Assembly (NCBI GenBank): GCA_023145835.1
Contig: JAGLDH010000001.1
Coordinates: forward strand, 1-64,000
Source: Methylococcales bacterium
GTDB taxonomy: Bacteria; Pseudomonadota; Gammaproteobacteria; Methylococcales; Methylomonadaceae
DNA length: 64,000 bases
Reading direction: 5' to 3'
Shown: positions 28,526-45,764 of the stretch, piece after piece
Layout: every line of letters begins with the position of its first letter
Numbering within the stretch: the stretch's first letter is position 1
Notes under the pieces: model-generated
Databases searched by the model: none
What the model was told of the DNA's origin: nothing
Seen by the model: the letters and a program-made list of their open reading frames with translations, nothing else
Translations under genes and position numbers: made by a program

Positions 28526-28924
28526 ATGTTTTTATCGCCGACTAAATTGCTCACTACTCTATTGGTATTGCTACAATTGATAGCACCATTAATGCATGTA
28601 CATGCAAGTGGAGAATCATTTGATAATGGAATTCATCTCCCAGGGTTAGAACATTTTAGTGTAACGAATGACTCTCCCACCTTCCTACCAATAAATCACC
28701 CCTTAACTGATGAACACACAATAATCAGTATTGGGGCTGCCATAAAACAAAATAAGATACTTTCTGATAGTTCACAAGTTTTTTATTTGCTCAACAGCAT
28801 ATTTACGCTTAATTCTGTGATCAATAGAGTATCTATTTTTGACTCTCTCTATTACCATCAAAATCATATTTCTACAGCACATTATACTTTGCTGCCTTCT
28901 CGTGCCTCCCCAACCAAGATATAA
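28526..28924 (+). CDS. small exported protein preceding a metal-efflux operon
   Basis: A 132-residue protein with an N-terminal hydrophobic signal (LLTTLLVLLQLIAPLMHVHA) and then a short His-containing motif (HVHASGESFDNGIHLPGLEHF). The rest has no recognised domain and ends in a conserved-looking LLPSRASPTKI. It is followed after 242 bases by the RND efflux genes and could be a periplasmic metal-binding or sensing accessory; His at the mature N terminus fits, but this is inference. I do not recognise a named family. Confidence 0.6.
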   Translation: MFLSPTKLLTTLLVLLQLIAPLMHVHASGESFDNGIHLPGLEHFSVTNDSPTFLPINHPLTDEHTIISIGAAIKQNKILSDSSQVFYLLNSIFTLNSVINRVSIFDSLYYHQNHISTAHYTLLPSRASPTKI

Positions 28925-29086
28925 CTATTTTCTAATAAAAACTCTAACCTATCTCTCAAATTCAATATATTTCGACTAGAATTACTGTGTGATTTCTTAG
29001 AGCCAACTCAAAATTTTTCTACACTATTATCAATTGTTTTCAAGCAAAAAATAGCCAAACATTTCATTTCGTAAATTATAAGGTTA

Positions 29087-29120
29087 ATCATTACCGGCCG
29101 ATAATCAATCGTGTAATGAT
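29087..29120. promoter_or_regulatory. inverted repeat upstream of the RND operon, possible operator
   Basis: ATCATTAC (29087-29094) and GTAATGAT (29113-29120) form an exact 8-bp inverted repeat with an 18-base centre, ending 46 bases before the CzcC-like start. Placement suits a regulator site or a leader hairpin. No metal-regulator gene is adjacent. Confidence 0.3.
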
Positions 29121-29166
29121 GACATTTTTGTACTTACTTACAAACAACTTTACCTGGAGTTCCATC

Positions 29167-30423: not shown

Positions 30424-31517
30424 AAAAAACTTTGCTCGTATTTTTGTTTTTAACATGTACTGCTACTAAAGCTAGTGACAACCAAATAATGCTAACCCCG
30501 TCTCAGCTTAATAATCTAGGGGTAAAAATAGATAAACTGAAATCTGTTCAAGATATTCCACTGCTTTATGCACCAGCAAAAGTAGTTATTCCACCTAGTC
30601 AAGAATACATTGTAAGTACAGCACAAGCTGGATTAGTCAGTAAACTTTATGTTGCTATCGGAGATAAAGTCGAAAAAGATCAGATACTCGCATTAATTAA
30701 AAGCCCAGAGCTATTATCTCTTCAACGTCAATATCTTAAGGCGCAAAACGAGAAAAAACTCGCATGGACAAGTTACCAAAGAAATGAAAAGCTTTTAAAA
30801 GAAGGCATTATTTCTAATCGCCGCTGGCAGGAAAATCGTAATAATTATTTTGCTTTTGTGGCAGAAGCTAACGAAGCCAAGCAACTCCTGGAAATTGCAG
30901 GCATGTCTTCTAGTGACTTAAAAAAACTGACTACCCATCGCAAGCTAAGCAGCGAGTTAAGTATTCGTTCACCGATTAAAGGTGTCATTTTAAATCGTAT
31001 GGGTACTGCCGGCGAAAGACTTGATGTTCTTGCGCCTATCTATCGCATTGCTAATTTGGATCAACTTTGGCTAGAGATCAATATTCCACAAGAGCGTATT
31101 GGGAAAATACTAATAACAGACAAAGTTAAGATAGATGGTACAGATGTGAGTGGAACCATCAGTTTAATAGGTCAAAGTGTAAACTCTCAAACACAAACCA
31201 TACTAACCAGAGCAATTATCTCTGACAAACAGCCTAGCTTAAGAGCAGGACAAAATGTTAACGTACAAATTATTAAAGCTAGCACCCAACCAACATTTGT
31301 CATCCCAAACGCTGCTATAGCACAAAGCGAGGGGCAAGCTTATCTATTTATTCGGAATGACCAAGGGTTTAAAGTTAGCCCTATCAACGTTGTTGGTAAA
31401 CAGAAACATCATTCTATTCTTACTGGTACAGATGCATTAAAAGAAAATATAGAAGTAGCTATTCGAGGCACCGTTGCTCTTAAAGCAAGTTGGTTAGACT
31501 TAGGGGGTGATGAATAA
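30420..31517 (+). CDS. CusB/CzcB-like periplasmic adaptor
   Basis: Membrane-fusion protein linking the RND pump to the outer-membrane channel. It has 365 residues: a signal peptide ending about residue 19, a barrel-sandwich segment (QAGLVSKLYVAIGDKVEKDQILALIKSPEL, about 72-100), a helical hairpin (about 100-165), and the second half-lipoyl plus beta-barrel region with SPIKGVILNRMGTAGERLD (about 183-200). No long N-terminal Met-rich metal site as in CusB and no extra metal-binding domain is seen. It overlaps its neighbours at both ends (ATGA and TAATG). Confidence 0.92.
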   Translation: MKKTLLVFLFLTCTATKASDNQIMLTPSQLNNLGVKIDKLKSVQDIPLLYAPAKVVIPPSQEYIVSTAQAGLVSKLYVAIGDKVEKDQILALIKSPELLSLQRQYLKAQNEKKLAWTSYQRNEKLLKEGIISNRRWQENRNNYFAFVAEANEAKQLLEIAGMSSSDLKKLTTHRKLSSELSIRSPIKGVILNRMGTAGERLDVLAPIYRIANLDQLWLEINIPQERIGKILITDKVKIDGTDVSGTISLIGQSVNSQTQTILTRAIISDKQPSLRAGQNVNVQIIKASTQPTFVIPNAAIAQSEGQAYLFIRNDQGFKVSPINVVGKQKHHSILTGTDALKENIEVAIRGTVALKASWLDLGGDE

Positions 31518-34500
31518 TGTCAAACCTCATACGCTTTGCTCTGTCTCAGCGAATACTTATTGTCTTGCTGATTTTTCTGTTAGTGGGCGTTGGTTATTAC
31601 TCAGTAAAAAATATTCCTATCGATGCCTTTCCAGAAGTATCTCCAACCCAAGTAAAAGTCATTGTTAAAGCAAATGGAATGACACCTGAGGAGGTTGAAA
31701 CAAGTATTACAGCGCCAATTGAAGTTGAATTACTTGGTATCCCCAAACAGACTATGCTTCGCTCATTAGCAAAGTATGCACTGACAGATATTACTATTGA
31801 TTTTGAAGAAGGCACTGATATTTTTTGGGCTCGTCAGCAAGTTGCTGAACGACTCAATACGATATGGAGTGATTTACCAGAAGGAGTTGAAGGTGGTATA
31901 GCTCCCATGACCACACCTTTAGGTGAAATGTTTATGTTCGCTATTGAAGGAGGTAATTTAACCCTGATGGAGCGTCGTAGTTTACTTGATTGGGTTATCC
32001 GCCCCGCATTACGAACTGTTCCTGGCGTTGCTGATGTCAATGCACTTGGAGGTTTAGTTCGTAGCTTTGAAGTATCCCCTGATAACATTCGTATGTCAGC
32101 GAGAAATATCAGTACCAACCAACTGATTGATGCACTTAAATCAAATAACAGAAATGATGGTGCTGGCAGGTTAAAAGAAGGTGAAGAAGCATTAATAGTG
32201 CGCGCAGAAGGTCGAATAAAGACATTAGATGATATTCGTTCTATTGTTGTTGATCAAAGATCTGGTTCACCAATTACTGTTAGTGATGTCGCCGATATAA
32301 AAATAGGCTCTTTAACCCGTTATGGAGCGGTTACAAAAGATGGTATAGGTGAAGCAGTCACAGGCTTAGTATTAAGTTTGCGTGGTGCTAATGCCCGACA
32401 AACAGTGATTGAGGTAGAAAAAAAACTAGCCGAAATTAGCCCTGGTTTTCCTGAAGGAGTAAAAATTAATATTTTTTATAACAGAGGAGACTTAATCGAC
32501 AAAGCTGTCAGCACAGTTTCAAATGCATTAATACAAGCTATTGTATTGGTGGTCATTTTACTTATTTTATTTTTAGGAAACCTTAGAGCAGCTTTGACCG
32601 TTGCACTTTCACTTCCCATGGCAGCTATGGTGACATTTATTCTAATGAAAAATATGGATATGTCCGCCAATCTAATGAGTTTAGGCGGGCTAGTAATAGC
32701 AATTGGTATGTTAGTCGATAGCGCAATTGTGGTCGTAGAAAATATTTCGACTCATCTAGCCGACAAAGAAAAATCACAAAGACTCCCTCACCTACATATT
32801 ATTTATAGAGCAACGAAGGAAGTTGCACTTCCAGTTACATCCGGCACTTTGATTATCATCATCGTATTTTTACCTCTATTAACCTTACAAGGCTTAGAGG
32901 GCAAATTATTTACCCCGGTTGCTCTTACGATTGTTTTTGCACTAAGCGGTGCTTTATTATTAGCTTTTACAGCCATTCCTGTACTTTCATCTTGGTTATT
33001 AACACATATTTCAGCTGAAGAACCCTGGCTGCCAAGACAATTACAAAGACTCTATCAACCGGTTCTACTCTGGAGCTTAAGTAATACTAAGAAAGTGTTT
33101 TCTATCGCAGCAGGACTTTTAGTTGTGACTGGTATTATCTTTACCCAAATTGGCAGCACCTTTATGCCAACTTTGGATGAAGGAGACATTGTCTTACAAG
33201 TAGAAAAGTTGCCATCTATCACATTAGAACAAACGGTTGCACTAGATGTTCAGGTTCAGAAAAACCTACTTAAAAATATCCCAGAAATTATTAATATAAT
33301 CTCTCGCGTAGGGACAGATGAGTTAGGTCTAGATCCAATGAGTTTAAATGACACAGATGCATTCTTGGTTTTAAAACCGAAAGATCAATGGCGCATGGAG
33401 AGTAAAGAAGAGTTAATAGAAGAAATTCGACAGATCATGAGCCAAACACCTGGACTTGCTTTTGGCTTTACCCAACCGATTGAAATGCGTGTTTCAGAGA
33501 TGCTAACAGGCTCCCGTGGAGATGTTGCTGTTAAATTATTTGGATCAGATCTTGATGAATTAAATGCAAAAGCCAAAGAAATTGAAACTATACTTAAATC
33601 TATTAAGGGGGCAACGGATGTTTTTGCTAGTGAAAATGAAGGTATTCAATTCTTGCAGCTATCTATTGATCATCAAGCAGCGGGTCGGTTAGGACTCAGT
33701 AGTGATGATATTGCAGCCCTATTACGCTCCCAGATTGAGGGACTTAATATTGGTATTATCCAAGAAGGCATAACTCGAACTCCCTTAATCATACGTGGAT
33801 CGAGTGATATTTCTACCTTTGAAAACCTACAAATCACTTTGCCAAGCGGAGGACATGTACCCATTACCGCTGTAGCCAAACTAGACCGAGTAGAGGGTGT
33901 TGTATCGATTGATAGGGAGCGAGGACAACGTTTTGTAGTTATTCAAAGTAATGTTGAAGGGCGTGATTTAGTTGGTTTCGTAGATGAAGCACGCAAAATA
34001 ATTAAAGAAAAACTCAATCTACCAACAGGCTATTATGTAGAATTTGGAGGGGAATTTGAAAACCAGCAGCGTGCTTCTGCCCGCTTAGCACTCGTTGTTC
34101 CTATTTCACTAATTTTGATTTTCTTATTACTTTTTTCAACTTTTTCTTCAGTTAAGCAAGCAGGTTTAATTCTATCCAATATCCCTCTCGCCATGATTGG
34201 CGGCGTATTTGCCCTGTGGGTATCAGGAGAATACTTATCTGTGCCAGCATCTATTGGTTTTATCGCCCTACTTGGAATTGCCGTATTAAATGGGGTTGTT
34301 ATGGTCAGTTATTTTAATCAACTACGCGCAACAGGCATGGACTTAGCTCAGGTAGTGATTATCGGCTCAACACGTCGATTACGCCCGGTCATGATGACGG
34401 CTACCACCGCAGCTTTTGGATTAATGCCTTTATTAATTGCATCGGGACCAGGCTCAGAGGTACAGCGCCCCTTGGCAATTGTAGTTATTGGGGGCTTAGT

Positions 34501-34588
34501 TTCTTCAACCTTACTAACATTGATTTTACTGCCAATGTTATATCAATTATTTATGGATAAAACTAATCAGGAGATAAGTAATGGATAA
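31517..34588 (+). CDS. heavy-metal RND efflux pump (CusA/CzcA family)
   Basis: Proton-driven inner-membrane pump of the HME-RND family, 1023 residues, normal length. It shows the N-terminal IPIDAFPEVSPTQVKV signature, twelve expected membrane helices and two large periplasmic loops. The TM4 charge-relay segment reads IAIGMLVDSAIVVVEN (about residues 394-409), closer to the CusA form (VDAAIVMIEN) than to CzcA (DFG…VDGAVVIVEN); the DFG Asp of CzcA is absent. The central loop has EMLTGSRGDVAVKLFG, the position of one CusA methionine. The substrate, monovalent Cu/Ag or a divalent ion, is not settled. Confidence 0.93.
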   Translation: MSNLIRFALSQRILIVLLIFLLVGVGYYSVKNIPIDAFPEVSPTQVKVIVKANGMTPEEVETSITAPIEVELLGIPKQTMLRSLAKYALTDITIDFEEGTDIFWARQQVAERLNTIWSDLPEGVEGGIAPMTTPLGEMFMFAIEGGNLTLMERRSLLDWVIRPALRTVPGVADVNALGGLVRSFEVSPDNIRMSARNISTNQLIDALKSNNRNDGAGRLKEGEEALIVRAEGRIKTLDDIRSIVVDQRSGSPITVSDVADIKIGSLTRYGAVTKDGIGEAVTGLVLSLRGANARQTVIEVEKKLAEISPGFPEGVKINIFYNRGDLIDKAVSTVSNALIQAIVLVVILLILFLGNLRAALTVALSLPMAAMVTFILMKNMDMSANLMSLGGLVIAIGMLVDSAIVVVENISTHLADKEKSQRLPHLHIIYRATKEVALPVTSGTLIIIIVFLPLLTLQGLEGKLFTPVALTIVFALSGALLLAFTAIPVLSSWLLTHISAEEPWLPRQLQRLYQPVLLWSLSNTKKVFSIAAGLLVVTGIIFTQIGSTFMPTLDEGDIVLQVEKLPSITLEQTVALDVQVQKNLLKNIPEIINIISRVGTDELGLDPMSLNDTDAFLVLKPKDQWRMESKEELIEEIRQIMSQTPGLAFGFTQPIEMRVSEMLTGSRGDVAVKLFGSDLDELNAKAKEIETILKSIKGATDVFASENEGIQFLQLSIDHQAAGRLGLSSDDIAALLRSQIEGLNIGIIQEGITRTPLIIRGSSDISTFENLQITLPSGGHVPITAVAKLDRVEGVVSIDRERGQRFVVIQSNVEGRDLVGFVDEARKIIKEKLNLPTGYYVEFGGEFENQQRASARLALVVPISLILIFLLLFSTFSSVKQAGLILSNIPLAMIGGVFALWVSGEYLSVPASIGFIALLGIAVLNGVVMVSYFNQLRATGMDLAQVVIIGSTRRLRPVMMTATTAAFGLMPLLIASGPGSEVQRPLAIVVIGGLVSSTLLTLILLPMLYQLFMDKTNQEISNG

Positions 34589-34886
34589 TGAAGAGTTTTT
34601 AGTTATCTTAACTGTGCCTTATAGTCTTGAAGAAGCAATTATAGATTGTTTGCTAACATTTGAAGTAGATTACGGCTTTAGTAGTTTTCCTGTCAGTGCA
34701 CATGACCATAAAAATAAAGGATTATCTCTGGCTGAACAAGTGAGGGGAAAACAACAACAAATACGCTTTCAGATGTATGTTGCTAAACATGACTTACCAA
34801 CTCTGACCCATCGTTTAAAAACCGAGTTTTCAGGCTCAGGAATTACCTATTCAGTTTTACCTGTTATTGAAAGAGGAGTTATTTAA
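34581..34886 (+). CDS. DUF3240 protein of the metal-efflux operon
   Basis: A 101-residue soluble protein with a ferredoxin-like/PII-like pattern: LVILTVPYSLEEAIIDCLLTF at the start and VAKHDLPTLTHRLKTEFSGSGITYSVLPVIERG at the end. It resembles DUF3240 proteins encoded next to HME-RND pumps. It overlaps the end of the pump gene by eight bases, so it is translated with it. A cytosolic metal-sensing or pump-regulating role is plausible by position but unproven. Confidence 0.8.
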   Translation: MDNEEFLVILTVPYSLEEAIIDCLLTFEVDYGFSSFPVSAHDHKNKGLSLAEQVRGKQQQIRFQMYVAKHDLPTLTHRLKTEFSGSGITYSVLPVIERGVI

Positions 34887-34891
34887 TTTTC

Positions 34892-34930
34892 TTAAGGAAC
34901 CTCTGATTAAGTTGATTAGAGGTTTCTTAA
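34892..34930 (+). terminator. terminator of the RND operon
   Basis: TTAAGGAACCTCT (34892-34904) pairs with AGAGGTTTCTTAA (34918-34930), 12 of 13 positions, starting six bases after the DUF3240 stop. The tail is only moderately T-rich, so some read-through into the next gene is possible. Confidence 0.65.
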
Positions 34931-34977
34931 ATAAAGATAAAGATAAAAAATGTTACCAAGGCTACTGACAATAAAAA

Positions 34978-36105
34978 ATGCAAGAAAAGGCAAATAAGGT
35001 AGGCGGGAGATTTCTTGGCTATTACCTAAAACTATCCCTCTTACTACTGCTGATTTGCCCCCCATGTTATTCTCACCAACTTTATGAATCATATATATTT
35101 ATCGATTTAAAAGACTCTAGTTCACCAACACTGCGCTGGGAAGTAGAATCTAATAACTTAGAGTCCATTTTTCAATTAGATAGAAATAAAAATGAAATTA
35201 TTAGCTGGAAAGAAATTAAACTATTCCAAGACCCTATTATTACTTATGTGAAACAACATTTTCAGTTATCAATAGATAATCAAGAAATCAACTTGAATTT
35301 TGAATCATTTGATCTCGAAAGAAAGGATGATCAAACATTTCTTATTTTTACACAGTTACTTGAGCCACAACCGTCAATTCAGTCTATCAGCATCAAATAC
35401 GACCTTTTCTTTGATATAGATAATAAACAAATCTGCTACGTCCATATCCAACAGAAAAACGCCCCTATTCTTGAAACTCTAAAACTTGATAAAAGCCACA
35501 TCCAGGTTCTATTAGAAACCTTTTCTATTACCACGTCGATGTTTAATTTCTTTATAGAAGGTATATGGCATATTTGGCTTGGAATAGATCATCTTTTATT
35601 TTTATTAATGCTTTTACTTCCTAGCCTCAATCACTATTTATTAACAAAAACATCGACTCAAGTTGGTAAGGACATTATTAAAATTGTCACCAGCTTTAGT
35701 GCAGCTCACACGATTACCCTCATACTATCTGTATTAGGAGTAGTATCATTACCTATAAAACTAATTGAAGTCTCCATAGCTATATCAGTCTTTATCACTG
35801 CATTTGCTAACGTTCGGCATAAACAGATGGATTTTTTATGGCAAGCTGCTTTTATTTTTGGCCTTATCCATGGCTTTGGGTTTGCTAATGCTCTACAAGA
35901 AATGAAGCTAGATAGTGAATATTTAGTTTTTTTATTACTTAGCTTTAATGTTGGAGTTGAAATAGGGCAACTTGTTTTAGTACTCATCACATTACCTATT
36001 TTAATGGCTATCAAGAAACACTCGTCCGTTTATCCTCTTACTATGAAAATTATTTCAAGCCTAACAGCTTTAATTTCACTTAGCTGGATAATAGAAAGGG
36101 TTTAA
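34978..36105 (+). CDS. HupE/UreJ-like membrane protein with an EF-hand-like N-terminal domain
   Basis: A 375-residue protein: signal peptide (about residues 13-33), then a periplasmic domain of about 150 residues containing a calcium-loop-like sequence (LDRNKNEIISWKEIK, about 68-82). The C-terminal half has about seven membrane helices, with the HupE/UreJ signature GIWHIWLGIDHLLFLLMLLLPSL (about 196-218) and GLIHGFGFAN (about 297-306). HupE-type proteins are linked to nickel or cobalt uptake, and relatives with this architecture occur near metal-efflux genes. The conserved His and Asp are present. The metal and transport direction are unknown. It probably belongs with the preceding efflux operon by read-through. 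Confidence 0.8.
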   Translation: MQEKANKVGGRFLGYYLKLSLLLLLICPPCYSHQLYESYIFIDLKDSSSPTLRWEVESNNLESIFQLDRNKNEIISWKEIKLFQDPIITYVKQHFQLSIDNQEINLNFESFDLERKDDQTFLIFTQLLEPQPSIQSISIKYDLFFDIDNKQICYVHIQQKNAPILETLKLDKSHIQVLLETFSITTSMFNFFIEGIWHIWLGIDHLLFLLMLLLPSLNHYLLTKTSTQVGKDIIKIVTSFSAAHTITLILSVLGVVSLPIKLIEVSIAISVFITAFANVRHKQMDFLWQAAFIFGLIHGFGFANALQEMKLDSEYLVFLLLSFNVGVEIGQLVLVLITLPILMAIKKHSSVYPLTMKIISSLTALISLSWIIERV

Positions 36106-36108
36106 ACT

Positions 36109-37122
36109 TTAAAAATGAATATTCTGAAATTGTTTTAATGCAGGTTTTGGAGTACCTTTAGAATCCACTATGCCAAAATGCTTTTCTGCCTCCTTAAAAT
36201 ATCCTACATGATGAGGCACATCCATTAAATGAAATGAATTAAATCCAATTAAATTTCCTTGGGAAATAAATTCAGGCATTAATTTAGCAAAACCTTGATA
36301 AACTTTCTCTTGAATTTTTAGTCCATTATCACCATAACTTGAAAGTGCTAAATAGGCTAAAAAAGTGGGTTTGTGATATCTTTTAGTTAAATATTTAGCA
36401 AATGCCAACGACCTTTCGGGTGTTTTTAAAATTTCCTCTGATCTATTTCTCGTACTACCCCGCATTTCCTGAAAGGTAATAAAATCAACATGCTGAATTG
36501 CTCTATGAACACTTAGGTGAAAACCTTGCCAATTTTTTTTGTCAGATATATTTTGATAATTCCCAAAGTCTCCCATACAAAAACTGACCTTCGTTTGTTT
36601 TACCTGTTTAACCAAGTTGATGCTGTCTATTAATAAATCATTAAAAGGCTCATAACTTTCAATACCATTCTCATTAAACTCTGGATTGAGGATAACAACT
36701 TTCTCTCCATCTAATTGGTCAAGAAACCAAACCATTCGCCTCAAAGCAGTAAAATATTTTTTTTTATTTTCTTTTATAAATTTTGGCGAAATATCATCAG
36801 CAAACCAATAAAAAATAAAAATAGGTGTATATCCTCGATCAATAATATTAGACTGGATATCCTCTATTTTATACCAACTCTCTTGCCAATCTCGATTAAT
36901 CCAAATAGTCACTGAGTTTGTATTTGGTGCTATATCTTTAATAACCTCATTAATAAAAACTTTTCTCTCTGGTGGACACTGTTTGTCAAATGCAATAATA
37001 TTTCCATTAACACTCTTACAATATTCATACCCTCCAACAGCAACATACCCTTTTTTATTAAATTGACTACATCCACTTATTAGAACCAAAAAAAAGATTG
37101 ATACTGAGATACGTACTTTCAT
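36109..37122 (-). CDS. glycoside-hydrolase-like lipoprotein of the exopolysaccharide operon
   Basis: A 337-residue lipoprotein; the lipobox LISGC places the acylated Cys at residue 18. The body reads as a TIM-barrel hydrolase: strands VTIWINRDW, TPIFIFYWFAD, KVVILNPEFNEN, TKVSFCMGDFG, DFITFQEMRG and PTFLAYLALSS occur in order. Candidate catalytic carboxylates are E in NPEFNEN (about residue 149) and E in FQEMRG (about residue 216). It could trim or release the polymer, as the PgaB or PelA hydrolase domains do. It is the last gene of the operon, its start overlapping the deacetylase stop by four bases (ATGA). I cannot place it in a numbered GH family. Confidence 0.65.
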   Translation of the reverse strand: MKVRISVSIFFLVLISGCSQFNKKGYVAVGGYEYCKSVNGNIIAFDKQCPPERKVFINEVIKDIAPNTNSVTIWINRDWQESWYKIEDIQSNIIDRGYTPIFIFYWFADDISPKFIKENKKKYFTALRRMVWFLDQLDGEKVVILNPEFNENGIESYEPFNDLLIDSINLVKQVKQTKVSFCMGDFGNYQNISDKKNWQGFHLSVHRAIQHVDFITFQEMRGSTRNRSEEILKTPERSLAFAKYLTKRYHKPTFLAYLALSSYGDNGLKIQEKVYQGFAKLMPEFISQGNLIGFNSFHLMDVPHHVGYFKEAEKHFGIVDSKGTPKPALKQFQNIHF

Positions 37123-38954
37123 TGTAATGAGTATTCAGCAATCAGGTTTAAAGAAGATAATGGGTTTATTATTGAAATAGTAATATCGGTAAATCGTGCT
37201 TTTAGGTTATTTTTGTACGTAACCCCTATTCCTCTAATTTCTGACCGAACATTTTCAATTTGAATAGGTTTTGTCCAAAAAACTCTAAAAGATAGTTTTT
37301 CAAGACTATCAATATTTTTATTTTTTACATTAATTAAAAAATTCTTAGCTGTTTGTTTTATATCGTAAGATATTTGTTCTCTTTTTTTAACTTTATCAAT
37401 TAACCCTTGGCCAGTTAATGCTGTTAATTTGGAGTTCTTGCTAACGTATTCAAAATATTTTTCAAGCATTTCTATATTATTTTTATACGCCATTAGGTGA
37501 GTATGAACACTTAGACTATAAATACCATCTAATGAAGTAATAAATTCAGTTTCAAATATCATTCTTTGGACAATTTCATCTTGTCCCCATTCTAAACTGA
37601 CTAAATATTGATAATCATCTGTTGCAGTTCTTGGAATAATGTACAACCCTTCGTGTTCTTCATGTGGGTATAAATAACCTTTATTTTTCTCCAAAACATA
37701 GCTATACCCTGCATCAATTAATTCATTAATCATGGCATCATCTAACTCTTCTCTAGGAGGCCTAAACCCAGTGATTTTCCGTTGACTTATTTGATCAATA
37801 ATTTCCTTAGACTTTTTAACTTCCAATCTAATGTTTTCTACCGAGGTTCCTAGAATTTTTTTATGTGAATGGCTATGAGATCCAATTTCAATAAAAGGAG
37901 ATTTTGCAGCCATTTTCATTAAGGGTAGATATTCCTCCTTTTCAGCTAAACTAGAAACACAATAAGCACTTACTGGAATTTTATATTTCTCAGCTGCATT
38001 AATAAAATTTTTAAACGATGAATATTTATATTCTGTATCTTCTGAAACTAGCACCACTTTTTTTACATCAATATAAGGGTAACTTATAGGAGTCGCCGTT
38101 TTAGATGCATACTCTACAATGCTCCCTAATATTGTTCTAAAAGTAGGCACAGCCTCCTCAATAGAAAATAGGCTATAAGAAGGAAATGAAATATAAGTCC
38201 AGTTTCCTTTTTTATATCCACCGTGCCAAATTGCACCTGCTTGTTCAGAACTCGCCTCCATATTTCCTTTTATTAAGGGAGGAGAACTTAATGTCCAATT
38301 TGATAACTTCATATCTGGCTCTAACCCTTTATCAGAAATAAATACAGGTAAAGGGTCAACGGTATATAGCTCAACACGTTTAGTAAATGGAATTATATTC
38401 TGAGTAATGGGAGATAAAATCCTAGGTATGAGAAACATACCTTCTTTACTTAAAATATGATTATTCTTTTTAGTGCTCTTTAAACCGGTAATGCGTCGAA
38501 TAACCTCATCATCTCGAAATCCACTTTTCGAATTATAAGCAAAATGATAATTAAAGACTAAAAAGCCTCCTTCTGAAACATAATTTTCTATATCTTTTAC
38601 ACTATTATTACTTAAAGAAATCGTATCTAATGCAAATAAAACCGAGTCTCGAGGTAAAGCAGCCAGCTCCTTTTCATCAATATACTTGACAACATACCCT
38701 TCTTGAAACAATAGCTTTTCTACTTGTTCTAATCGATTTAAATATCCTTTTTTATTAATACCAAAGGATTCTAGTTTTTCAATAGTCTCAGTAGATTTTA
38801 AAAAAAATACTTCTTCATCACCTCGTGTTCCAGAAAAAGCGAAAGTGTCATAGGGCACATAGTTTTCAAAAATTTGATGAAAAACAACACTAGATAAAAG
38901 TAAAAGTAGAATAACTAAAACTCCAACTTTTATGCCATACCATCGATTCATCAT
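37119..38954 (-). CDS. membrane-anchored polysaccharide deacetylase with a large N-terminal domain
   Basis: About 611 residues from ATG 38954 (the frame is open to 39050, but that would overlap the preceding small gene by 77 bases). One N-terminal membrane helix (VGVLVILLLLLSSVVF) is followed by an alpha/beta domain of about 240 residues resembling a glutamine-amidotransferase-like fold (DSVLFALDTISLSNNSVKDIENYVSEGGFLVFNY). The NodB-like deacetylase starts near residue 298: SEDTE (about 303), HSHSHKK (about 361) and GFRPPRE (about 400) match the metal Asp, His-x3-His and Arg motifs. It probably N-deacetylates the nascent polymer in the periplasm. The domain order recalls PelA more than PgaB. 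Confidence 0.75.
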   Translation of the reverse strand: MMNRWYGIKVGVLVILLLLLSSVVFHQIFENYVPYDTFAFSGTRGDEEVFFLKSTETIEKLESFGINKKGYLNRLEQVEKLLFQEGYVVKYIDEKELAALPRDSVLFALDTISLSNNSVKDIENYVSEGGFLVFNYHFAYNSKSGFRDDEVIRRITGLKSTKKNNHILSKEGMFLIPRILSPITQNIIPFTKRVELYTVDPLPVFISDKGLEPDMKLSNWTLSSPPLIKGNMEASSEQAGAIWHGGYKKGNWTYISFPSYSLFSIEEAVPTFRTILGSIVEYASKTATPISYPYIDVKKVVLVSEDTEYKYSSFKNFINAAEKYKIPVSAYCVSSLAEKEEYLPLMKMAAKSPFIEIGSHSHSHKKILGTSVENIRLEVKKSKEIIDQISQRKITGFRPPREELDDAMINELIDAGYSYVLEKNKGYLYPHEEHEGLYIIPRTATDDYQYLVSLEWGQDEIVQRMIFETEFITSLDGIYSLSVHTHLMAYKNNIEMLEKYFEYVSKNSKLTALTGQGLIDKVKKREQISYDIKQTAKNFLINVKNKNIDSLEKLSFRVFWTKPIQIENVRSEIRGIGVTYKNNLKARFTDITISIINPLSSLNLIAEYSLQ

Positions 38955-38973
38955 TTTTTCAAGACGACTTTCT

Positions 38974-39156
38974 TTATTTATCGAAGAAGATGAAATCAGT
39001 ACCGAGCTCAATACATTTCTCCTCATAGTTTGTAGGGATCCGTTTAGCATTTTTTTTATCTCTTATTTTATACATAAAATAAGCGATCACTCCAAACACC
39101 AACGTAAAAATAGTAATCACAAGAATTACTATAGACATAATACCTATCAAGTTCAT
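38974..39156 (-). CDS. 60-residue membrane protein in the exopolysaccharide operon
   Basis: A short protein with one strong transmembrane helix (about residues 5-29, IMSIVILVITIFTLVFGVIAYFMY) and a basic then polar cytosolic tail (KIRDKKNAKRIPTNYEEK…). Its ATG directly abuts the synthase stop (TAAATG) and has GGGGAG eight bases upstream, so translation is likely. Position after the GT2 gene is that of PgaD in pga operons, but PgaD is over twice as long with two helices, and no similarity is seen. It may be a small synthase subunit. Confidence 0.65.
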   Translation of the reverse strand: MNLIGIMSIVILVITIFTLVFGVIAYFMYKIRDKKNAKRIPTNYEEKCIELGTDFIFFDK

Positions 39157-40461
39157 TTACAATCTCCCCTTACGGTCTAATTTTCCCCATTCCATTTCTG
39201 TATTAGTCCATTCTTCAATAGTTGCAAAAATTTTAGACACATTAATAATTGAAATAAAATACAATCTATAAAGTATTGCGTAAAATGATAAATACAACGA
39301 TTCACCTGTCATCATTAAGCAATATAAAGCACCCGCAACATCCATTACGGTAAACAACATCCACCAATAGAAGAGAAGTGAACTTTCTCCATATATAAAT
39401 GCGATATATAGACAAAAAAGAGTACCAAATACATCAAATATAGGCCAAAAAATAGCCTCAAAAAGCATATACCATAAAATTAAACTAATCGATGGAGTCT
39501 TAAAGACATGTAATAGTTTTGCTTTATGCTTTCCCAATGACTGTAAAATTCCTCGGGTCCATCTATATCTCTGTTTAATTAAATCTAATAACTCTTCAGG
39601 TGCTTCGGTATAAGCAACAGCTTCAGATTCAAACTCTACCTTGTACCCATTTCCAATTAAGTTCATTGTTAAATCGGCATCTTCTGCAAAAGTATCACTT
39701 TCATAACCTCCGACCTTTTGAAGAGCTGATTTTCTAAACATACCAATAGGTCCCGGAATAATAGAAACAAGTTGAAAAAAAGCTTGCCCATTTCTAACCA
39801 TATTCAAACCTTCAATATATTCTAAGGCTTGTAACTTAGTTAATAAATTGACCCTATTGCTAATAAAAACTGATCCTGCAACCGCACCTATTTTCTCATC
39901 ATTAAAATGACTCACCATTAATTCAACAGCACCATCAGATAATTTCGAATCAGAATCAACGACCATAACCAGGTCGCCAGTACTTTTTTTAATACCATAA
40001 TTTAAGGCAATCGCTTTTCCGCCATTTGGCTTTGTAAGTACCACTAACGATTTATTTCCTTGATTAAATTCAAGCTTTTTTGCTAGTTTATATGTTTGAT
40101 CACTAGAACCATCGTCTACAACAATTATTTCAATAAAAGGGTAATTTTGTTGCATCAACGACTGGATTGATTTAACAATAACCAATTCTTCATTGTAAGC
40201 AGGGACGATAATAGAAACCTTAAATAACTCATTTGATCTTTTTACAGGCTTTGAAGTTATTTTAATCGTCTTTAACATTGAAAAAAATAACAGTAATAAA
40301 TAACGAGCAATAATGATCACTGTAAATGCCATGATCAATAAAGCGCCTACTTTCAAAAAATCTGACTGAAAAGTCAGTAACATTTGCTGTAAATTGACGA
40401 CTGAATAAAAAGCCAAAGAACATAAAATACTAAAAAAAAGAAAAACAGATAATGTCCTCAT
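39157..40461 (-). CDS. processive GT2 glycosyltransferase, exopolysaccharide synthase
   Basis: Inner-membrane synthase of 434 residues, similar in plan to PgaC/IcaA. Two N-terminal helices (about residues 5-25 and 37-60) precede the catalytic domain VSIIVPAYNEE (82-92). Catalytic residues are D116-D117, D169-x-D171, the base in TFAEDADLTM (E260-D261) and Q297-x2-R-W301, the processive QxxRW motif. Helices at about 320-400 complete the translocation channel. The ATG at 40461 overlaps the upstream stop (ATGA); the frame also has GTG at 40467. The substrate is probably a UDP-hexosamine given the downstream deacetylase, which is inference. Confidence 0.88.
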   Translation of the reverse strand: MRTLSVFLFFSILCSLAFYSVVNLQQMLLTFQSDFLKVGALLIMAFTVIIIARYLLLLFFSMLKTIKITSKPVKRSNELFKVSIIVPAYNEELVIVKSIQSLMQQNYPFIEIIVVDDGSSDQTYKLAKKLEFNQGNKSLVVLTKPNGGKAIALNYGIKKSTGDLVMVVDSDSKLSDGAVELMVSHFNDEKIGAVAGSVFISNRVNLLTKLQALEYIEGLNMVRNGQAFFQLVSIIPGPIGMFRKSALQKVGGYESDTFAEDADLTMNLIGNGYKVEFESEAVAYTEAPEELLDLIKQRYRWTRGILQSLGKHKAKLLHVFKTPSISLILWYMLFEAIFWPIFDVFGTLFCLYIAFIYGESSLLFYWWMLFTVMDVAGALYCLMMTGESLYLSFYAILYRLYFISIINVSKIFATIEEWTNTEMEWGKLDRKGRL

Positions 40462-43400
40462 TTCCACTCATACTCTAACGTTGCTAAACAATTATTCGAA
40501 TGATAATTTTCTCCGCCCGCACTGGCACTACCTACATTACTTCTTTCACAACCTGCCTTAGCTTTGAGTCCCTTATTAATTCTATATTGAGCCCACGCTC
40601 CATAACGATAAATAATATTATTCACATCAACTGAATACCCTATTGCAGCCGATGAAATAAGATCAAAGTCTTTACTTACTTTAAATACAGGCCTAAAACT
40701 AAAAGAAGTGGAATCAAAAAATTCTGGTGAATAATAGTCATTAGTTTCTTTCTTATTCCACATATAATATCCTTCTATTGCGAATTCATAATCAACAGGA
40801 ATATATCGATTTTTAAATTTATCTCGGTAAACTATTAAATTAAATTGAGGTATTACTTCGATATTATCATCATCTATATATCCAGCATCAACGGAATACC
40901 ACAACGATTGTTTTTTAGAAAAACTCATGTTCCCTGAAACCTGAACCCCATATCGGTCTATATGTTTAGTCAGAGCTTTACATGCAAGCTTTTCATAAAA
41001 CAAAGGCCTTTTATAAAGTTGAATATCAATATTACTCTGATCAAATATCAAACGAGAATTAATAAAGGGTGAAAATATTGTTTTACCATCTAGTTGGTCG
41101 ACCCTTAACCCACCGCCATATTGTAATGAAGTAGATTTTTCATACATCCCTGAAAGCTCTACTGACCCACCAGCCTTTCCTGACTCTACAGTATCGTCAT
41201 TACAAAACTCATCCTCAAAAGTAAATCCTCCACCTGAAAAATTTATTTCATAAGGCCAGGAATTGTATTGAGCTTTAATACGAGGACTGTTAAAGTCAAC
41301 CCCTACACGATCAGATGTATGATGATAATCCAGTTCAATTCTTTTCGTATCACGAGATGAATAGTAAAGTATATCTTCAGCAACAAAAGAAGAATGCGCT
41401 TTATTTTGACTGAGTTGAACAGGCGTCACAAAAGTATCAGAAAGTACTTTACTCTCTGGACTGAGTAATTTTTTAACCCCTCCTCCCAAATAAATACCAT
41501 TAATTACGACATCCTTATTCTTTTCAAGAACATCTAATCGTTTTCTTGCTAATTCATTAAGCTTTGCTTTTGAATTTTTTTTATTTCCTGATAACTTTGT
41601 TGCTGCTTTCGTCTTATTAATAATGTGAGTATAGATTTTCTTAGCTTGTTGATACTTTTCACTTTGCTCTAAGTTGTATGCATAATGATATTGAATATTC
41701 AAATCATTTGGCTTAGCTCGTACAACTCTAGAAAACTCTTTCACTGCCTTACTATAACTACCAATTTGCCCTAATGCGTAAGCATATCTATGTCTAATAT
41801 AATAATCATTGGAATACTGATTAAGGTACTTATGATAGAGATGAGCCGCTTCTCTAAAATTTCTTTCTTTGTATTTTTTATTTGCAACGATTAAATTTTG
41901 ATCTCTCCCTGCAAGAGGTGCTTTCAATACCTTTTCTTTTAATTTAACCGCTTTTGTAGAATTAGGATAATAAGCTTGTAACTTCTTTATTACCTCAAGA
42001 GAGTTTTCATTAAACCCATTCCAATGATAATTGTTTGCTAAATTCATCAACGACTTTTCAGTATGTAATCGATAAGCGTAGCGCTTAAGAAACTTAAACC
42101 CAAGGTCAAACTTTTTTTGAGTTAAATAGAGTAACCCCATTGCTTTCTCTACTTTTATATCAGTACGTTTAATTCGCCGGTATCGCTCATAATACTGAAG
42201 TGCTTTACTATTAAATTTAGCCGCTTCATATAAATTTGCTAATCGTAAAATGACTTGTGCATTATTAGAATCACCTTTTAACTGTTGTTCATACTGATCA
42301 ATCAATGGATTATATTTATTTTTTGCAAGCATATAAGCTTCTTGTACAGCCATATTTGATGGATATTCTTTTGCTAAAGGAGCTAATATTTTTTGAGCGT
42401 TTAACTTATCTCCCTGCCATAGATAAGTATTTCCTAACAATAAACTTACATCACGAACAAAGTCATCAGTGTAAGCAAAATCATTATTTACCTCGACCTG
42501 GCTCACCAATTTGTTAAGAATTGTTTGTGCTTCTTCTGTACTCCCACCTTTCCAAGACAAGTACTTGGCTAGTAAAAATTGTGATTCAGGTGTTTGTTGT
42601 TCAAAAGACCTAAGCATTTTAATTGCTGAATCAACCTGTTGATTAGAAGCAAATTGTTTAGCAAAAAACAACTTAACTTCATCATTTTTTGGGTATTCTT
42701 TAATAAACTTATATAATAAGTTGTAGGCCTTTTCTTTATTTCCACTCTGAAATAAAGATTGAGTAAAGCTTTTAATCGTAGCTGTTGAAGGTTTTTCTCG
42801 ATATTCTTTTTCAGCAACGGCAACACGCCCTTTAAATAAACCAGCCACTTTCTTGGTAAGATTTATTGCCTTAGGTTCATTAATATAGTGTTTGTTTATT
42901 TCGACAGACACACTATCTGCATCTAGAACTCGACCTTGTTGAATTAAAATCTCAGCTAACTGCAATCCTATCTCTAAATCTCCTGTAGAATTAAACAAAG
43001 CCTCTAAAGGGCTCGTAGCACATTCAAAGTTTTCTAAGACAGAGCATGTTTCAGCCAAAAGCTTCTGTACACGTTCATCAGACTGATCCTCGATCATTTC
43101 AATCATATTCATCGCTTGTTTGTATTTTTTTTGCTCCACCAATACAGCCGCACAAACAATTTGACTTTGTTGACTTAAACCAATATTTTTTTCTTCTAAT
43201 ATATTAAAAAGTTGATCGAGTAAATCAAATTCCTTTTTTGAAAATAATTTTTCAACAACAGTGTCAACGACAGCTTCATCAGTTAAATCAAGAATATTTA
43301 ATTCTTGTAATAACTGCTCGCTTTTTTTAGCAGAAAGCCATCTATTCTGGAGCTTTAGTGCCATTCTATTATCATTTTCCTGCTTTAATGCAATATCAAT

Positions 43401-43574
43401 CAGCTTCTCGGATTTGCTTAGGTTTCCTATTTTAAGATAGTAACTCGCCAATAAAAGCCTAGTTTCAATATCATCAGGATTCTCTGTAAGAATAGATTCT
43501 AGATACTTTGAATCTAGTGCTATTTCGGCATAAACAGGAGTAACAACAAAAAGTAATAATACTAATAATCTCAT
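40458..43574 (-). CDS. TPR plus outer-membrane beta-barrel exporter (PgaA/PelB-like)
   Basis: A 1038-residue outer-membrane protein. A signal peptide (LLVLLLFVVTPVYA) precedes a long helical superhelix of TPR units (about residues 25-690), with clear repeats such as HLYHKYLNQYSNDYYIRHRYAYALGQ and VVRAKPNDLNIQYHYAYNLEQ. The C-terminal 330 residues alternate polar and aromatic residues as a porin barrel and end YEWK. PgaA, PelB, AlgK/E and BcsC share this plan, in which TPRs guide polymer and recruit the deacetylase. The last residue is Lys rather than the usual aromatic. It overlaps both neighbours by four bases. Confidence 0.85.
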   Translation of the reverse strand: MRLLVLLLFVVTPVYAEIALDSKYLESILTENPDDIETRLLLASYYLKIGNLSKSEKLIDIALKQENDNRMALKLQNRWLSAKKSEQLLQELNILDLTDEAVVDTVVEKLFSKKEFDLLDQLFNILEEKNIGLSQQSQIVCAAVLVEQKKYKQAMNMIEMIEDQSDERVQKLLAETCSVLENFECATSPLEALFNSTGDLEIGLQLAEILIQQGRVLDADSVSVEINKHYINEPKAINLTKKVAGLFKGRVAVAEKEYREKPSTATIKSFTQSLFQSGNKEKAYNLLYKFIKEYPKNDEVKLFFAKQFASNQQVDSAIKMLRSFEQQTPESQFLLAKYLSWKGGSTEEAQTILNKLVSQVEVNNDFAYTDDFVRDVSLLLGNTYLWQGDKLNAQKILAPLAKEYPSNMAVQEAYMLAKNKYNPLIDQYEQQLKGDSNNAQVILRLANLYEAAKFNSKALQYYERYRRIKRTDIKVEKAMGLLYLTQKKFDLGFKFLKRYAYRLHTEKSLMNLANNYHWNGFNENSLEVIKKLQAYYPNSTKAVKLKEKVLKAPLAGRDQNLIVANKKYKERNFREAAHLYHKYLNQYSNDYYIRHRYAYALGQIGSYSKAVKEFSRVVRAKPNDLNIQYHYAYNLEQSEKYQQAKKIYTHIINKTKAATKLSGNKKNSKAKLNELARKRLDVLEKNKDVVINGIYLGGGVKKLLSPESKVLSDTFVTPVQLSQNKAHSSFVAEDILYYSSRDTKRIELDYHHTSDRVGVDFNSPRIKAQYNSWPYEINFSGGGFTFEDEFCNDDTVESGKAGGSVELSGMYEKSTSLQYGGGLRVDQLDGKTIFSPFINSRLIFDQSNIDIQLYKRPLFYEKLACKALTKHIDRYGVQVSGNMSFSKKQSLWYSVDAGYIDDDNIEVIPQFNLIVYRDKFKNRYIPVDYEFAIEGYYMWNKKETNDYYSPEFFDSTSFSFRPVFKVSKDFDLISSAAIGYSVDVNNIIYRYGAWAQYRINKGLKAKAGCERSNVGSASAGGENYHSNNCLATLEYEWK

Positions 43575-44965
43575 TTAGTTTTATTTTGATAATCAAAACT
43601 ATATTTCACGGCATCCTTAGATCCAATCATTTTTACATTTTCACTAATTGCAGAAAATTTTGCCTCTATTGCAGGCCTATTTTTTTCCATTGTATTAACT
43701 AAAAACAAATAAATTAATTTTTCTTCCTTGTTAATAAGTGCCACATCAAAAGCTCGACCAAGATTTTTTTTCACATCCTCTGCCGAAAGAGTCGCTTCGT
43801 ATTTAAATTTAAAGACTGTAAAGAAAAGGTTCTTACATAAAAAAGCAACAATAAACTTTTGAAATATTCCTTGGTCATATATCACATAAGTTTTATTGGG
43901 AATTTTTTGCATTTCATCACTATAAAAAGGTACCCCTAAGGCTCTTTCTATTGACAATATAAGATCTTCAATATAAAAATCTTTTTCCTGAACATCACAA
44001 AAGCCACTTTGCAAAATCTCAGCTTTATCTTGTCTTCTCAAAATAGATCGTGGAGAAATAAAAAGCACTTTGACATTGCTGTTTTTCACCGACTTACTTA
44101 TTTTTTTTAGCTCAGCTATTGATTGATGTTCTGAAGGATTAAAAATAACGAGTTGTGGCTCATCACTTATTACATTCATAATCTCAGTTAAATGAGGTTC
44201 AACCTGGCTTAATGTAAAGTTATTACCATCAAACAAGTATTTCACCACTCCTGCTAAAGTAGAAGATTGACTAGCCAATATTATTCGGTAAACTTTGGAT
44301 TCTTGATCATCTTGCTCCCCATATTTATTGGGTACCAAATCAAATTGTTTTGTTTTCGCATTTAATTCAAAAGAAAATTTTGAATGTTGAACTGAAAACA
44401 AAGAAGAAACCAGCTCCACATCCCGTGCTTTAGCATCATAAAGTCTTTTAGAAATAACAAATTCTGAATCAATATTTTTTTCAAAATATTCATAAATATA
44501 ATGGGAGTTGTTATTCCCCGTACTAACAGTAAAAATCAATGATTTTTCTGCTGCCTGAGCAATAGTAATCATATTAAAAAGAAAATTTTCAATTTCATTA
44601 GCATCATGAATCTCAAAAAACTCATCAACCCTATGAATAATAACAAGCTCTCTTGCACCGCCTATTATTTTTTCAATATCTTTTAAAAGAAAAGCATAGC
44701 CATATTTATTTTTTAATAACTTCCAATTTTCTCTTAGATTATATTGATCAATTCGTTCTAAAATAGATTGTAAATTTGAATTTAACTGTAAAGTAGCCTG
44801 CCTTTTTTTATTGAAAAAATTTTTACTAAAAGGGCTAATTAAAGTAACGGGGTTTTGCGTCATCTGTGAAGCACAATACATGGCAAACGTTAATTTACCA
44901 CTTTGCCTGTCACCGGAAATGGCAATAGAACTAAGTGACTGAAAATCTTCAAAATATTTATTCAT
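43571..44965 (-). CDS. cytosolic P-loop-like/receiver-like regulator heading the exopolysaccharide operon
   Basis: A 464-residue soluble protein without membrane segments. Residues 1-200 form a RecA/KaiC-like core with a degenerate Walker A, GDRQSGKLT (18-26), and a hydrophobic beta strand with Asp/Glu (ARELVIIHRVDEFFEIHD). About 225-340 resemble a response-regulator fold (YRIILASQSSTLAGVVKYLF…PQLVIFNPSE…KVLFISPRS) without a clear phospho-acceptor triad. About 350-455 form a third alpha/beta domain. NTPase-like, receiver-like and degenerate third domain is the order seen in the cellulose regulator BcsE, but no RxGD di-GMP site is visible. Sequence similarity to BcsE is not evident, so this rests on layout alone. 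Confidence 0.55.
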   Translation of the reverse strand: MNKYFEDFQSLSSIAISGDRQSGKLTFAMYCASQMTQNPVTLISPFSKNFFNKKRQATLQLNSNLQSILERIDQYNLRENWKLLKNKYGYAFLLKDIEKIIGGARELVIIHRVDEFFEIHDANEIENFLFNMITIAQAAEKSLIFTVSTGNNNSHYIYEYFEKNIDSEFVISKRLYDAKARDVELVSSLFSVQHSKFSFELNAKTKQFDLVPNKYGEQDDQESKVYRIILASQSSTLAGVVKYLFDGNNFTLSQVEPHLTEIMNVISDEPQLVIFNPSEHQSIAELKKISKSVKNSNVKVLFISPRSILRRQDKAEILQSGFCDVQEKDFYIEDLILSIERALGVPFYSDEMQKIPNKTYVIYDQGIFQKFIVAFLCKNLFFTVFKFKYEATLSAEDVKKNLGRAFDVALINKEEKLIYLFLVNTMEKNRPAIEAKFSAISENVKMIGSKDAVKYSFDYQNKTK

Positions 44966-45675
44966 TTACAACATCATTTCCGCAAATAATATTCAGACAG
45001 ACAACCCATCTAATTAAACCTTCTTGATAAAGTATAGTACAGTTATTTATTTAAAAACATTAATCACTTTACTCTTAACTATCAAGTACAAAGTCAGATT
45101 ATACAGTTAATAAAGTTAGTACAAGCTGAACAAGGAAGCTTCTTTCATATCTAATAAAAAGTATATTTGATCCATTATTTTTCCACTAATAAAATAAATT
45201 ATACGTATACATTAAAAACAACACATCTCCCATAAAGCCAATCTTTAATAAATAACTAATAATATCAACAAAATAAACCTACAGTTAAAAAAAGTTTTTA
45301 TTATTTTTTAAAACAAATGAACCATCCGACAAAATAAACATCTTTCAAAAAAAGACTTAGCTCGATGCTAAACCTAAATATAACCCTTTAATTTAATTGC
45401 CAATATCCTTTTTTATCCTCTATTTTTGATCATCAGGTAATGATAATTCAATTTTATTTATGTTAACAGTGCTTAAGAAGACAATAAAAACTGCCTATTG
45501 TTTTTTTTACCAAAATTTATTTTCGATTTTACTGTGTAATATTTCAACTTAAAACAGCTAAGTAACATCCTGAAAAATATAATTATTTAATTTCCTATTT
45601 TTTATCTTCTATTGCCCCCTGCCTAATCAACCCTAAGTCATTGTAGAAAAAGAAAGTATTTATCAGAAATCATTC
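44966..45675. other. AT-rich intergenic region between divergent operons
   Basis: About 710 bases with no credible coding frame and no recognisable structural RNA, very rich in A and T runs. It separates the minus-strand exopolysaccharide operon from the dcw cluster and must hold the exopolysaccharide promoter and its control sites. I could not pick out a convincing minus-strand promoter. Confidence 0.5.
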
Positions 45676-45704
45676 TTGACGTTCAATAGATAGAAAACTA
45701 TAGT
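45676..45704 (+). promoter_or_regulatory. sigma-70 promoter of the dcw cluster
   Basis: TTGACG (45676-45681) and TATAGT (45699-45704) are separated by 17 bases, a near-consensus pair. The predicted transcription start near 45711 lies just ahead of the MraZ boxes and 54 bases before mraZ. Confidence 0.75.
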
Positions 45705-45712
45705 TGTACCTA

Positions 45713-45738
45713 AAGTGGGAAAAAGTGGGAAAATAGGG
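45713..45738 (+). promoter_or_regulatory. MraZ operator, 10-bp-spaced TGGGA boxes
   Basis: GTGGGA occurs at 45715-45720 and again at 45725-45730, with a third degenerate copy (TAGGG) at 45734-45738. MraZ is known to repress its own operon by binding such TGGGA direct repeats with 5-bp spacers. Here they overlap the predicted start of transcription, which fits repression. Confidence 0.8.
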
Positions 45739-45764
45739 TTTTTTTTGTTTATCTGGGGGTTTTT

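Follow-up and report, generated by a model that had tools for sequence, protein, structure and literature searches.

A co-conserved six-gene block with a BcsE-like leader in a Methylococcales bacterium: a probable c-di-GMP-switched exopolysaccharide secretion system

Described systems and the six-gene block

Of the described synthase-dependent exopolysaccharide systems, the type II cellulose machinery of Escherichia coli, the Pga system that makes poly-N-acetylglucosamine (PNAG) and the Pel system come closest to a block of six minus-strand genes at positions 36109 to 44965 of a 64,000-nucleotide stretch of Methylococcales bacterium DNA (contig JAGLDH010000001.1; the whole stretch analyzed is referred to as the window). 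In E. coli, BcsE offers two I-sites for cyclic di-GMP (c-di-GMP), R306ATD and R415TGD, while BcsF is a single-helix peptide with a tail that supplies the NTPase-like domain of its partner BcsE with an extra strand (PMC11470070). The Pel protein PelA is a CE21 deacetylase with a GH166 hydrolase. In a survey of synthase-dependent operons, bcsE is named once, as an accessory gene that was left out (PMC7112194). Searches of an open-access library, not all of them aimed at this question, brought up no paper with a title or opening abstract lines pointing to the present gene set or to BcsE outside cellulose; an earlier description in subscription papers is possible.

The six genes considered here are a real, tightly packed and co-conserved unit. 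They probably encode a synthase-dependent exopolysaccharide secretion system that is switched by c-di-GMP via a BcsE-type receptor and could not be matched to any described type. This reading is supported by the co-conservation of the genes in 57 loci that were found through the synthase alone, together with their operon-like gaps; by the predicted BcsE fold and I-site residues of the leading gene product, along with Pfam BcsE leaders in Betaproteobacteria; by the 32 GGDEF matches in the genome itself (G000) and the retention of the metal residues in 22 of the 25 deacetylases aligned; and by a synthase closest to PgaC and NodC profiles with chondroitin and hyaluronan synthases among its PDB profile matches, with a GH8 enzyme encoded in one group of relatives (class II, below).

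Like the E. coli type II cellulose locus, the block encodes a leader in which three domains are degenerate and two I-sites are of the RxxD type, along with a small membrane protein of one helix and a TPR exporter, and the GH8 enzyme of class II recalls BcsZ. Unlike that locus, the six genes include no BcsA (the synthase reaches 80 bits against the CelA profile, cut-off 699), PilZ, BcsB or BcsG, comprise a deacetylase instead, and encode a small protein for which hhalign gave no evidence of homology to BcsF. The sfz/sfb twisted-stalk cluster likewise comprises six polysaccharide genes, a hydrolase among them, and is suspected to be under c-di-GMP control. It was considered because the domain of the window's hydrolase (P0006) recurs in four genomes, and was rejected, as the genes described for it, namely BcsB-like Sfz1, Sfz2, GH10-like Sfz4 and the CotH protein Sfz6, form another set (PMC8250860). 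The psc clusters of Rubrivivax also appear unlike this gene set (PMC3684757).

Gene order and conservation

ORFs (open reading frames) for all six genes are present in the window. At 43574, 40461 and 37122, the ORF coordinates bear out the ATGA overlaps, and at 39156 the abutting TAAATG, that a sequence-only reading had reported for these minus-strand genes, with one start revised: the ORF of the deacetylase (37119 to 39050, 643 amino acids (aa)) begins inside the preceding small gene, and the start that matches its relatives is an ATG-ATG at ~38954, giving a protein of ~611 aa that begins ~20 nt past the stop of the small gene. From the upstream end, all on the minus strand, the block thus comprises the leader (43571 to 44965; 464 aa), a TPR protein with a signal helix, presumed to serve as periplasmic guide and outer-membrane exporter (40458 to 43574; 1038 aa), a PilZ-less GT2 synthase (39157 to 40461; 434-436 aa), a small single-helix membrane protein (38974 to 39156; 60 aa), a membrane-anchored deacetylase (37119 to 38954, with the likely start) and a TIM-barrel hydrolase-like lipoprotein (36109 to 37122; 337 aa). 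The synthase ORF extends to 40467, where it opens with GTG, the ATG lying two codons on, at 40461.

The sequence-only reading had proposed conservation across genera as a check on the block, and such conservation was found. When 369 genomes of the class were searched with the leader, one was found beyond that of the window, namely G116, a distant relative of the same class, in which all six genes are collinear with those of the window (locus L010). Identity amounts to 61% for the GT2 synthase, 50% for the hydrolase, 37% for the deacetylase, 24% for the leader, 26% for the exporter (23% for its C-terminal part) and 69% over 35 aa for the small protein, the gene of which has its frame broken in a run of A in L010. 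When a collection of 84,980 species was scanned once with two exact peptide patterns, both confined to the C-terminal part of the synthase, 57 further loci were recovered from Campylobacterota, Beta- and Gammaproteobacteria, Myxococcota, Lentisphaerota and Acidobacteriota, a lower bound given that only genomes with one of the two patterns are detected. Because the patterns came from the synthase only, the other genes count as independent evidence. Beside the synthase, the TPR exporter is encoded in 56 of the 57 loci, the small single-helix protein in 53, the deacetylase in 52, the leader in 50 and the P0006-type TIM-barrel hydrolase in six, as well as in L010. The spacing is operon-like, with a median gap of 0.5 nt between the leader and the next gene over the 46 loci measured.

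Using profiles built from these same loci, 17 of the 50 leaders were assigned to classes I and II, 29 to a BcsE type (class III) and four to a KaiC-REC type (class IV). Class I, comprising the window, G116, Marinobacterium, Campylobacterota and one further bacterium, has the order leader, exporter, GT2, small protein, deacetylase and, mostly, TIM-barrel hydrolase. In class II (Campylobacterota), the order is exporter, leader, GT2, small protein, deacetylase and GH8, with a GH8 relative in seven of nine loci. Class III, mainly from Betaproteobacteria, has a BcsE-type leader, a mostly shorter TPR exporter, GT2, small protein and deacetylase. No more than 10 kb from class III operons lie cellulose-type genes, namely those for BcsB (L053:14811-20129), a 705-aa GT2 (L069:15123-20696) and BcsC (L040:13676-17728). 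The four class IV loci, from Myxococcota according to the tree labels, have leaders with recognizable KaiC and response-regulator domains, with Pfam matches in all three scanned. As for loci lacking a leader, at most about 500 bases precede the exporter or GT2 gene in L051, L054 and L048; in L075, none stands at the usual place and a KaiC-type gene lies downstream; and none was found at locus L077.

In a tree of GT2 sequences, from which two pieces of L059 were excluded, class I forms one group of 10 rows (97/93) in which Gammaproteobacteria and Campylobacterota are mixed. Among near relatives, when the deacetylase was used to search 60 related genomes along with that of the window, only partial matches came up, in three others, confined to the deacetylase domain, while a search of 301 genomes of the order with the hydrolase returned only the window's own copy. 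This mixing of phyla and the absence from the near relatives searched point to horizontal spread of the gene set. Viral contigs held no relative for the synthase or hydrolase queries, and plasmids only GT2 sequences below 60% identity (at most 39.5% among the matches listed).

The leader and the small membrane protein

The leader (P0001) was modeled from an 18-row alignment with a mean pLDDT of 84.9 and a pTM of 0.56. The model comprises a degenerate KaiC/RecA-like part (residues ~1-217), a REC-like part (~225-345) and a GGDEF-like part (~360-464), and this predicted order of NTPase-like, REC-like and GGDEF-like domains is that of the BcsE family. In a Foldseek search of the PDB, the first five matches were chains of E. 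coli Bcs entries (E 2.5e-17 to 6.7e-15), followed by KaiC; the five are taken to be BcsE because of their length (475-511 residues) and because entry 9fo7 is titled BcsE and BcsF only. With VIA, residues 1-216 matched KaiC (Z 19.0 over 200 residues, 2.9 Å), and the best 50 rows for residues 1-217 consisted of KaiC and other RecA-like chains, such that the absence of BcsE from those rows is no evidence against it. Columns 229-346 gave REC profile matches in the PDB. In the leaders of the window and G116, the P-loop follows the GxxxxGK pattern but lacks the usual S/T; in class II, it is lost. The sequence-only reading had called the leader a pseudo-NTPase and had named BcsE for comparison; the predicted BcsE-like fold, with its degenerate KaiC-like domain and both I-site motifs, agrees with each.

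Those motifs, R310-D313 and R404-D407, align with R306ATD and R415TGD of E. coli BcsE. Across 18 class I and II leaders, which are 16-29% identical to that of the window (alignment A6, excluding the 143-aa cut leader of L028), F117, D166, R310, E340, F347, Y348, R404 and D407 are invariant and D313 is kept in 17. When 14 leaders were aligned with E. coli BcsE, only R310, G321, R404 and D407 remained invariant. Three leaders of the betaproteobacterial type score 219-249 bits against the Pfam BcsE family PF10995 (cut-off 25), and R437-x-G439-D440 is kept in all 13 BcsE-type leaders aligned (A10, drawn from 29). The profiles of class I/II and class III leaders match each other over 397 columns (E 7e-5, probability 63%). 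On the strength of these residues, the leader would bind c-di-GMP at the two RxxD sites.

Leaders with Pfam KaiC and response-regulator domains precede the same GT2 operon at L072:5920-7701, L073:6388-7980 and L074:4612-6465. Given that the REC domain of the L073 leader scores well (79.6 bits), KaiC-type leaders may still receive input by phosphorylation.

In the small protein, a single hydrophobic helix (residues 6-24) is accompanied by a basic segment and by a tail whose end is hydrophobic, reading DFIFFDK in the window and AIFLKRYVP in L047 (alignment A8, 28 of 55 sequences). It matched no Pfam family over the cut-off, nor was PgaD found in scans of Pfam and NCBIfam. By analogy with BcsF and BcsE, the small protein probably holds the leader at the membrane.

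Synthase, exporter, deacetylase and hydrolase

The synthase matched Glycos_transf_2 in Pfam (5.9e-35), with no PilZ domain listed. It presents the DxD, ED and QxxRW motifs of the membrane GT2 enzymes of synthase-dependent exopolysaccharide systems, as D119, D171-x-D173, E262-D263 and Q299-R-Y-R-W303 are invariant in the 23 sequences aligned (A12, from 60 GT2 pieces) and hydrophobic segments are present. Its best NCBIfam profile is PgaC_IcaA at 195.4 bits (cut-off 422.3), followed by NodC at 133 bits and then CelA. The exporter, which matched TPR families in Pfam, has a hydrophobic N-terminus (residues 3-21) and reaches 17.4 bits against the PgaA profile (cut-off 366.65). With the PgaC, PgaA and CelA cut-offs, those scanned, all missed, the earlier statement that the block matches no classical system is supported, while the description as Pga-like fits no more than the kind of synthase and exporter.

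These scores bear on the best-surviving alternative, that the block is a diverged pga operon with PgaC as the GT2, the small protein in place of PgaD and PgaB split in two, and with ordinary beta-1,6-poly-GlcNAc (GlcNAc being N-acetylglucosamine) as product. Such an operon would have the same functional set, comprising a GT2 closest to PgaC, a TPR exporter and the expected periplasmic deacetylase and hydrolase activities. It is nonetheless improbable, seeing that both curated cut-offs are missed by far, deacetylase and hydrolase are separate proteins, no PgaD was found in the small-protein scans, the class II hydrolase belongs to GH8, and a BcsE-type leader is, to our knowledge, not known in pga.

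The deacetylase is laid out as a helix, an alpha/beta domain, a CE4-like domain and a C-terminal stretch, with a Polysacc_deac_1 match (2.2e-15) at residues 331-452 of the ORF. In PDB profile searches, the protein matched CE4-type enzymes (best E 1.3e-16) and, in its N-terminal domain, GH42-type beta-galactosidases (2.9e-6). The kept metal residues are D338, H392 and H396 (alignment A9, 25 of 55 sequences), and E337 is kept in 16 of 17 class I/II rows. The PelA-like architecture proposed from sequence is partly supported by the succession of alpha/beta domain, CE4-like domain and C-terminal stretch, whereas the profile found CE4 enzymes and GH42-type domains rather than PelA. Near one class III operon, a second gene with a deacetylase domain lies beside an AlgF/DUF4397 gene (L036:2837-5653, minus strand), and similar minus-strand matches occur in several other betaproteobacterial loci.

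The hydrolase has no Pfam match. Its model is a TIM barrel (pLDDT 86.2, pTM 0.86), and its best structural matches (Foldseek E 4.8e-11; VIA Z 20.4-21.8) are clan GH-A enzymes of families GH53, GH26, GH5, GH1 and GH2. Enzymes of clan GH-A are TIM barrels with catalytic glutamates after strands 4 and 7. Among the acidic residues checked, E148, D185, E219, D301 and E313 are invariant; by the strand count of the model, E148 follows strand 4 and E219 lies on strand 6, with no invariant acid on or right behind strand 7 (253-260). A lipobox, ISGC, can be read from the sequence, a similar one (LAGC) being present in L072 only among seven relatives. That an unrelated GH8 enzyme takes the place of the hydrolase in class II suggests that this role can be filled by different enzymes. 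GH8 includes beta-1,4-glucanases and chitosanases, and for this reason the favored polymer is a beta-1,4 chain with free amines.

Four small genomes that belong to one family of another class also carry the P0006 TIM-barrel domain, in frames of 845-888 aa (L017:8466-10997, L018, L019 and L020:11296-13884). The L017 copy is preceded by TPR-like sequence and has unrelated neighbors, and no match to the other window proteins was found at the four loci.

A Pel-like system, in which a split PelA, present as hydrolase and deacetylase, acts on an alpha-1,4-linked N-acetylgalactosamine polymer, is more doubtful still than a diverged pga operon. The domain order of the deacetylase, with an alpha/beta domain ahead of the deacetylase domain, does resemble that of PelA behind its hydrolase domain (PMC12022489), the invariant E148 and E219 can be set beside the D160 and E218 used by PelA, and PelD, the degenerate GGDEF protein through which c-di-GMP controls Pel, is the nearest structural counterpart of the GGDEF-like domain of BcsE (PMC7439463). 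However, the only glycosyltransferase of the six genes is a GT2 and not the GT4 PelF, the hydrolase is a separate protein and there is no further Pel-like gene among the six; as weaker evidence, PelA was recovered neither by profile searches nor in the best 50 fold rows. Processive GT2 enzymes of the group to which the synthase belongs give beta linkages.

BcsE in two contexts and the proposed working

When 12 genomes with the system were searched with PF10995, one match each was obtained in five, all class III, and four of these matches lie beside this operon. A CelA match over the cut-off is present in 10 of 20 genomes with the system and absent from 10, including those of the window and G116, a result that concerns the cut-off only, as several of the latter genomes hold weaker cellulose-synthase-like matches; in L053, one such gene below the CelA cut-off adjoins BcsB. 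In two samples not selected by the synthase (369 genomes, and 200 chosen around G1047, a genome with the system), PF10995 gave seven matches over the cut-off, a G1114 match below it being left out of the count. Six of these lie beside bcs genes, with BcsG beside all six and BcsA beside three, and one, in G1047, in this operon. The notion that BcsE usually occurs in this operon was therefore rejected; BcsE occurs in two contexts, namely bcs loci and this operon.

A tree of 39 leaders (26 of the 29 BcsE-type, six of 18 class I/II, seven bcs-linked and no KaiC-type) contains many long branches. In it, the seven bcs-linked BcsE proteins form one clade (99/99), with class I/II leaders on the other side. 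The 26 operon-linked class III leaders are not one group, L067 branching off first with weak support (85/24); viewed from the class I/II leaders, the bcs-linked clade falls beside or within the operon-linked ones. Given that downstream genes are common to leaders of all four classes, a single move from operon to cellulose would explain this pattern, and one such transfer of BcsE is, in view of the long branches, put forward as a hypothesis. More tentatively, and at somewhat less than even confidence, the operon may represent an old, separate class of c-di-GMP-switched machine that was the source of the cellulose BcsE and secretes a chitosan-like polymer, with a KaiC-REC-GGDEF ancestral leader, still recognizable in Myxococcota, having decayed to a pure receptor tethered by a tiny membrane protein.

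Several observations weigh against the operon encoding a c-di-GMP-switched secretion system of its own. Against PF10995, P0001 scores 11 bits, missing the cut-off of 25, and is accordingly filed as BcsE-like rather than as a Pfam BcsE member. Whole-chain TM-scores between the leader and BcsE chains are 0.27-0.30, such that the BcsE assignment rests on the kind and order of domains and not on their mutual position. The second (REC) I-site reads REQE in G116 and R-x-x-N in three betaproteobacterial leader rows of the BcsE alignment. In L053 and its relative L059, a different gene occupies the position of the leader (L053:6369-7322 and L059:278-1504, 80% identical to each other), the L053 genome having its BcsE on another contig. 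Comparison of the small protein with E. coli BcsF gave an hhalign probability of 1.5%, over 60 residues only. D338, H392 and H396 are lost in L068, L072 and L075, and the deacetylase is hence probably dead in some distant members. Finally, there is the bcs setting of most BcsE proteins found without selection by the synthase, and class III leaders could also serve nearby cellulose genes, as in L053 and L040.

That the leader has no functional tie to the operon, serving cellulose synthesis or being a general c-di-GMP protein, is the least probable alternative, as the BcsE proteins in bcs loci, the genomes that also hold CelA and the cellulose genes near L053 and L040 are outweighed by a leader that is present in 50 of 57 loci and abuts the next gene, by class I and II leaders that form a group of their own in the tree and by the two genomes, those of the window and G116, in which CelA stays below its cut-off.

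The block is flanked on both sides by plus-strand genes. To the left (28526-36105) lies an efflux set of OEP, HlyD-type, AcrB-type and DUF3240 genes, followed by a gene of the HupE/UreJ family that includes a DUF6702 domain, and to the right the mraZ-to-ftsA cell-wall cluster. The G+C content of the block is 31.5%, as compared to 36.5-36.6% in the flanks. No tRNA and no Rfam family at the gathering score were found in the window. Between the divergent leader and mraZ, positions 44966-45764 comprise ~800 AT-rich bases without a plausible gene, within which the operon promoter should lie, even though promoter consensus scans of this region gave nothing above chance. The genome also holds one AMO/pMMO-family match (ammonia/particulate methane monooxygenase), and one of its GGDEF-domain genes (G000:C1:66275-66754, in a 697-aa frame) lies immediately beyond the right end of the window, ~21 kb away from the leader.

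As proposed, the probable c-di-GMP-switched machine would work as follows. Upon a rise in c-di-GMP, the leader, acting as a BcsE-type receptor whose NTPase domain is dead, would bind the nucleotide at its two RxxD sites while being held by the 60-aa single-helix protein at the inner membrane, beside the synthase. The PilZ-less GT2 would thereby be switched on to polymerize and extrude a chain, most likely of N-acetylhexosamine. In the periplasm, the anchored deacetylase would take off part of the acetyl groups, the TPR protein would guide the chain out via a putative outer-membrane barrel, and the TIM-barrel hydrolase, or GH8 in the sister group, would trim it.

The gene set, well supported as a unit, looks like a new class of a familiar kind of machine, widespread and seemingly undescribed, with an unexpected receptor. 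The short list of synthase-dependent exopolysaccharide systems would gain a class from it, in hosts that include little-studied Campylobacterota, a genome with a pMMO/AMO-family gene and freshwater-type Betaproteobacteria. The BcsE-type receptor, known so far from cellulose secretion, here apparently serves another polymer machine, making testable both the origin of BcsE, a dead-enzyme c-di-GMP receptor, and the switching of a PilZ-less synthase by such a receptor. Should the polymer be a deacetylated beta-1,4-GlcNAc chain, the system would offer a bacterial route to chitosan-like material.

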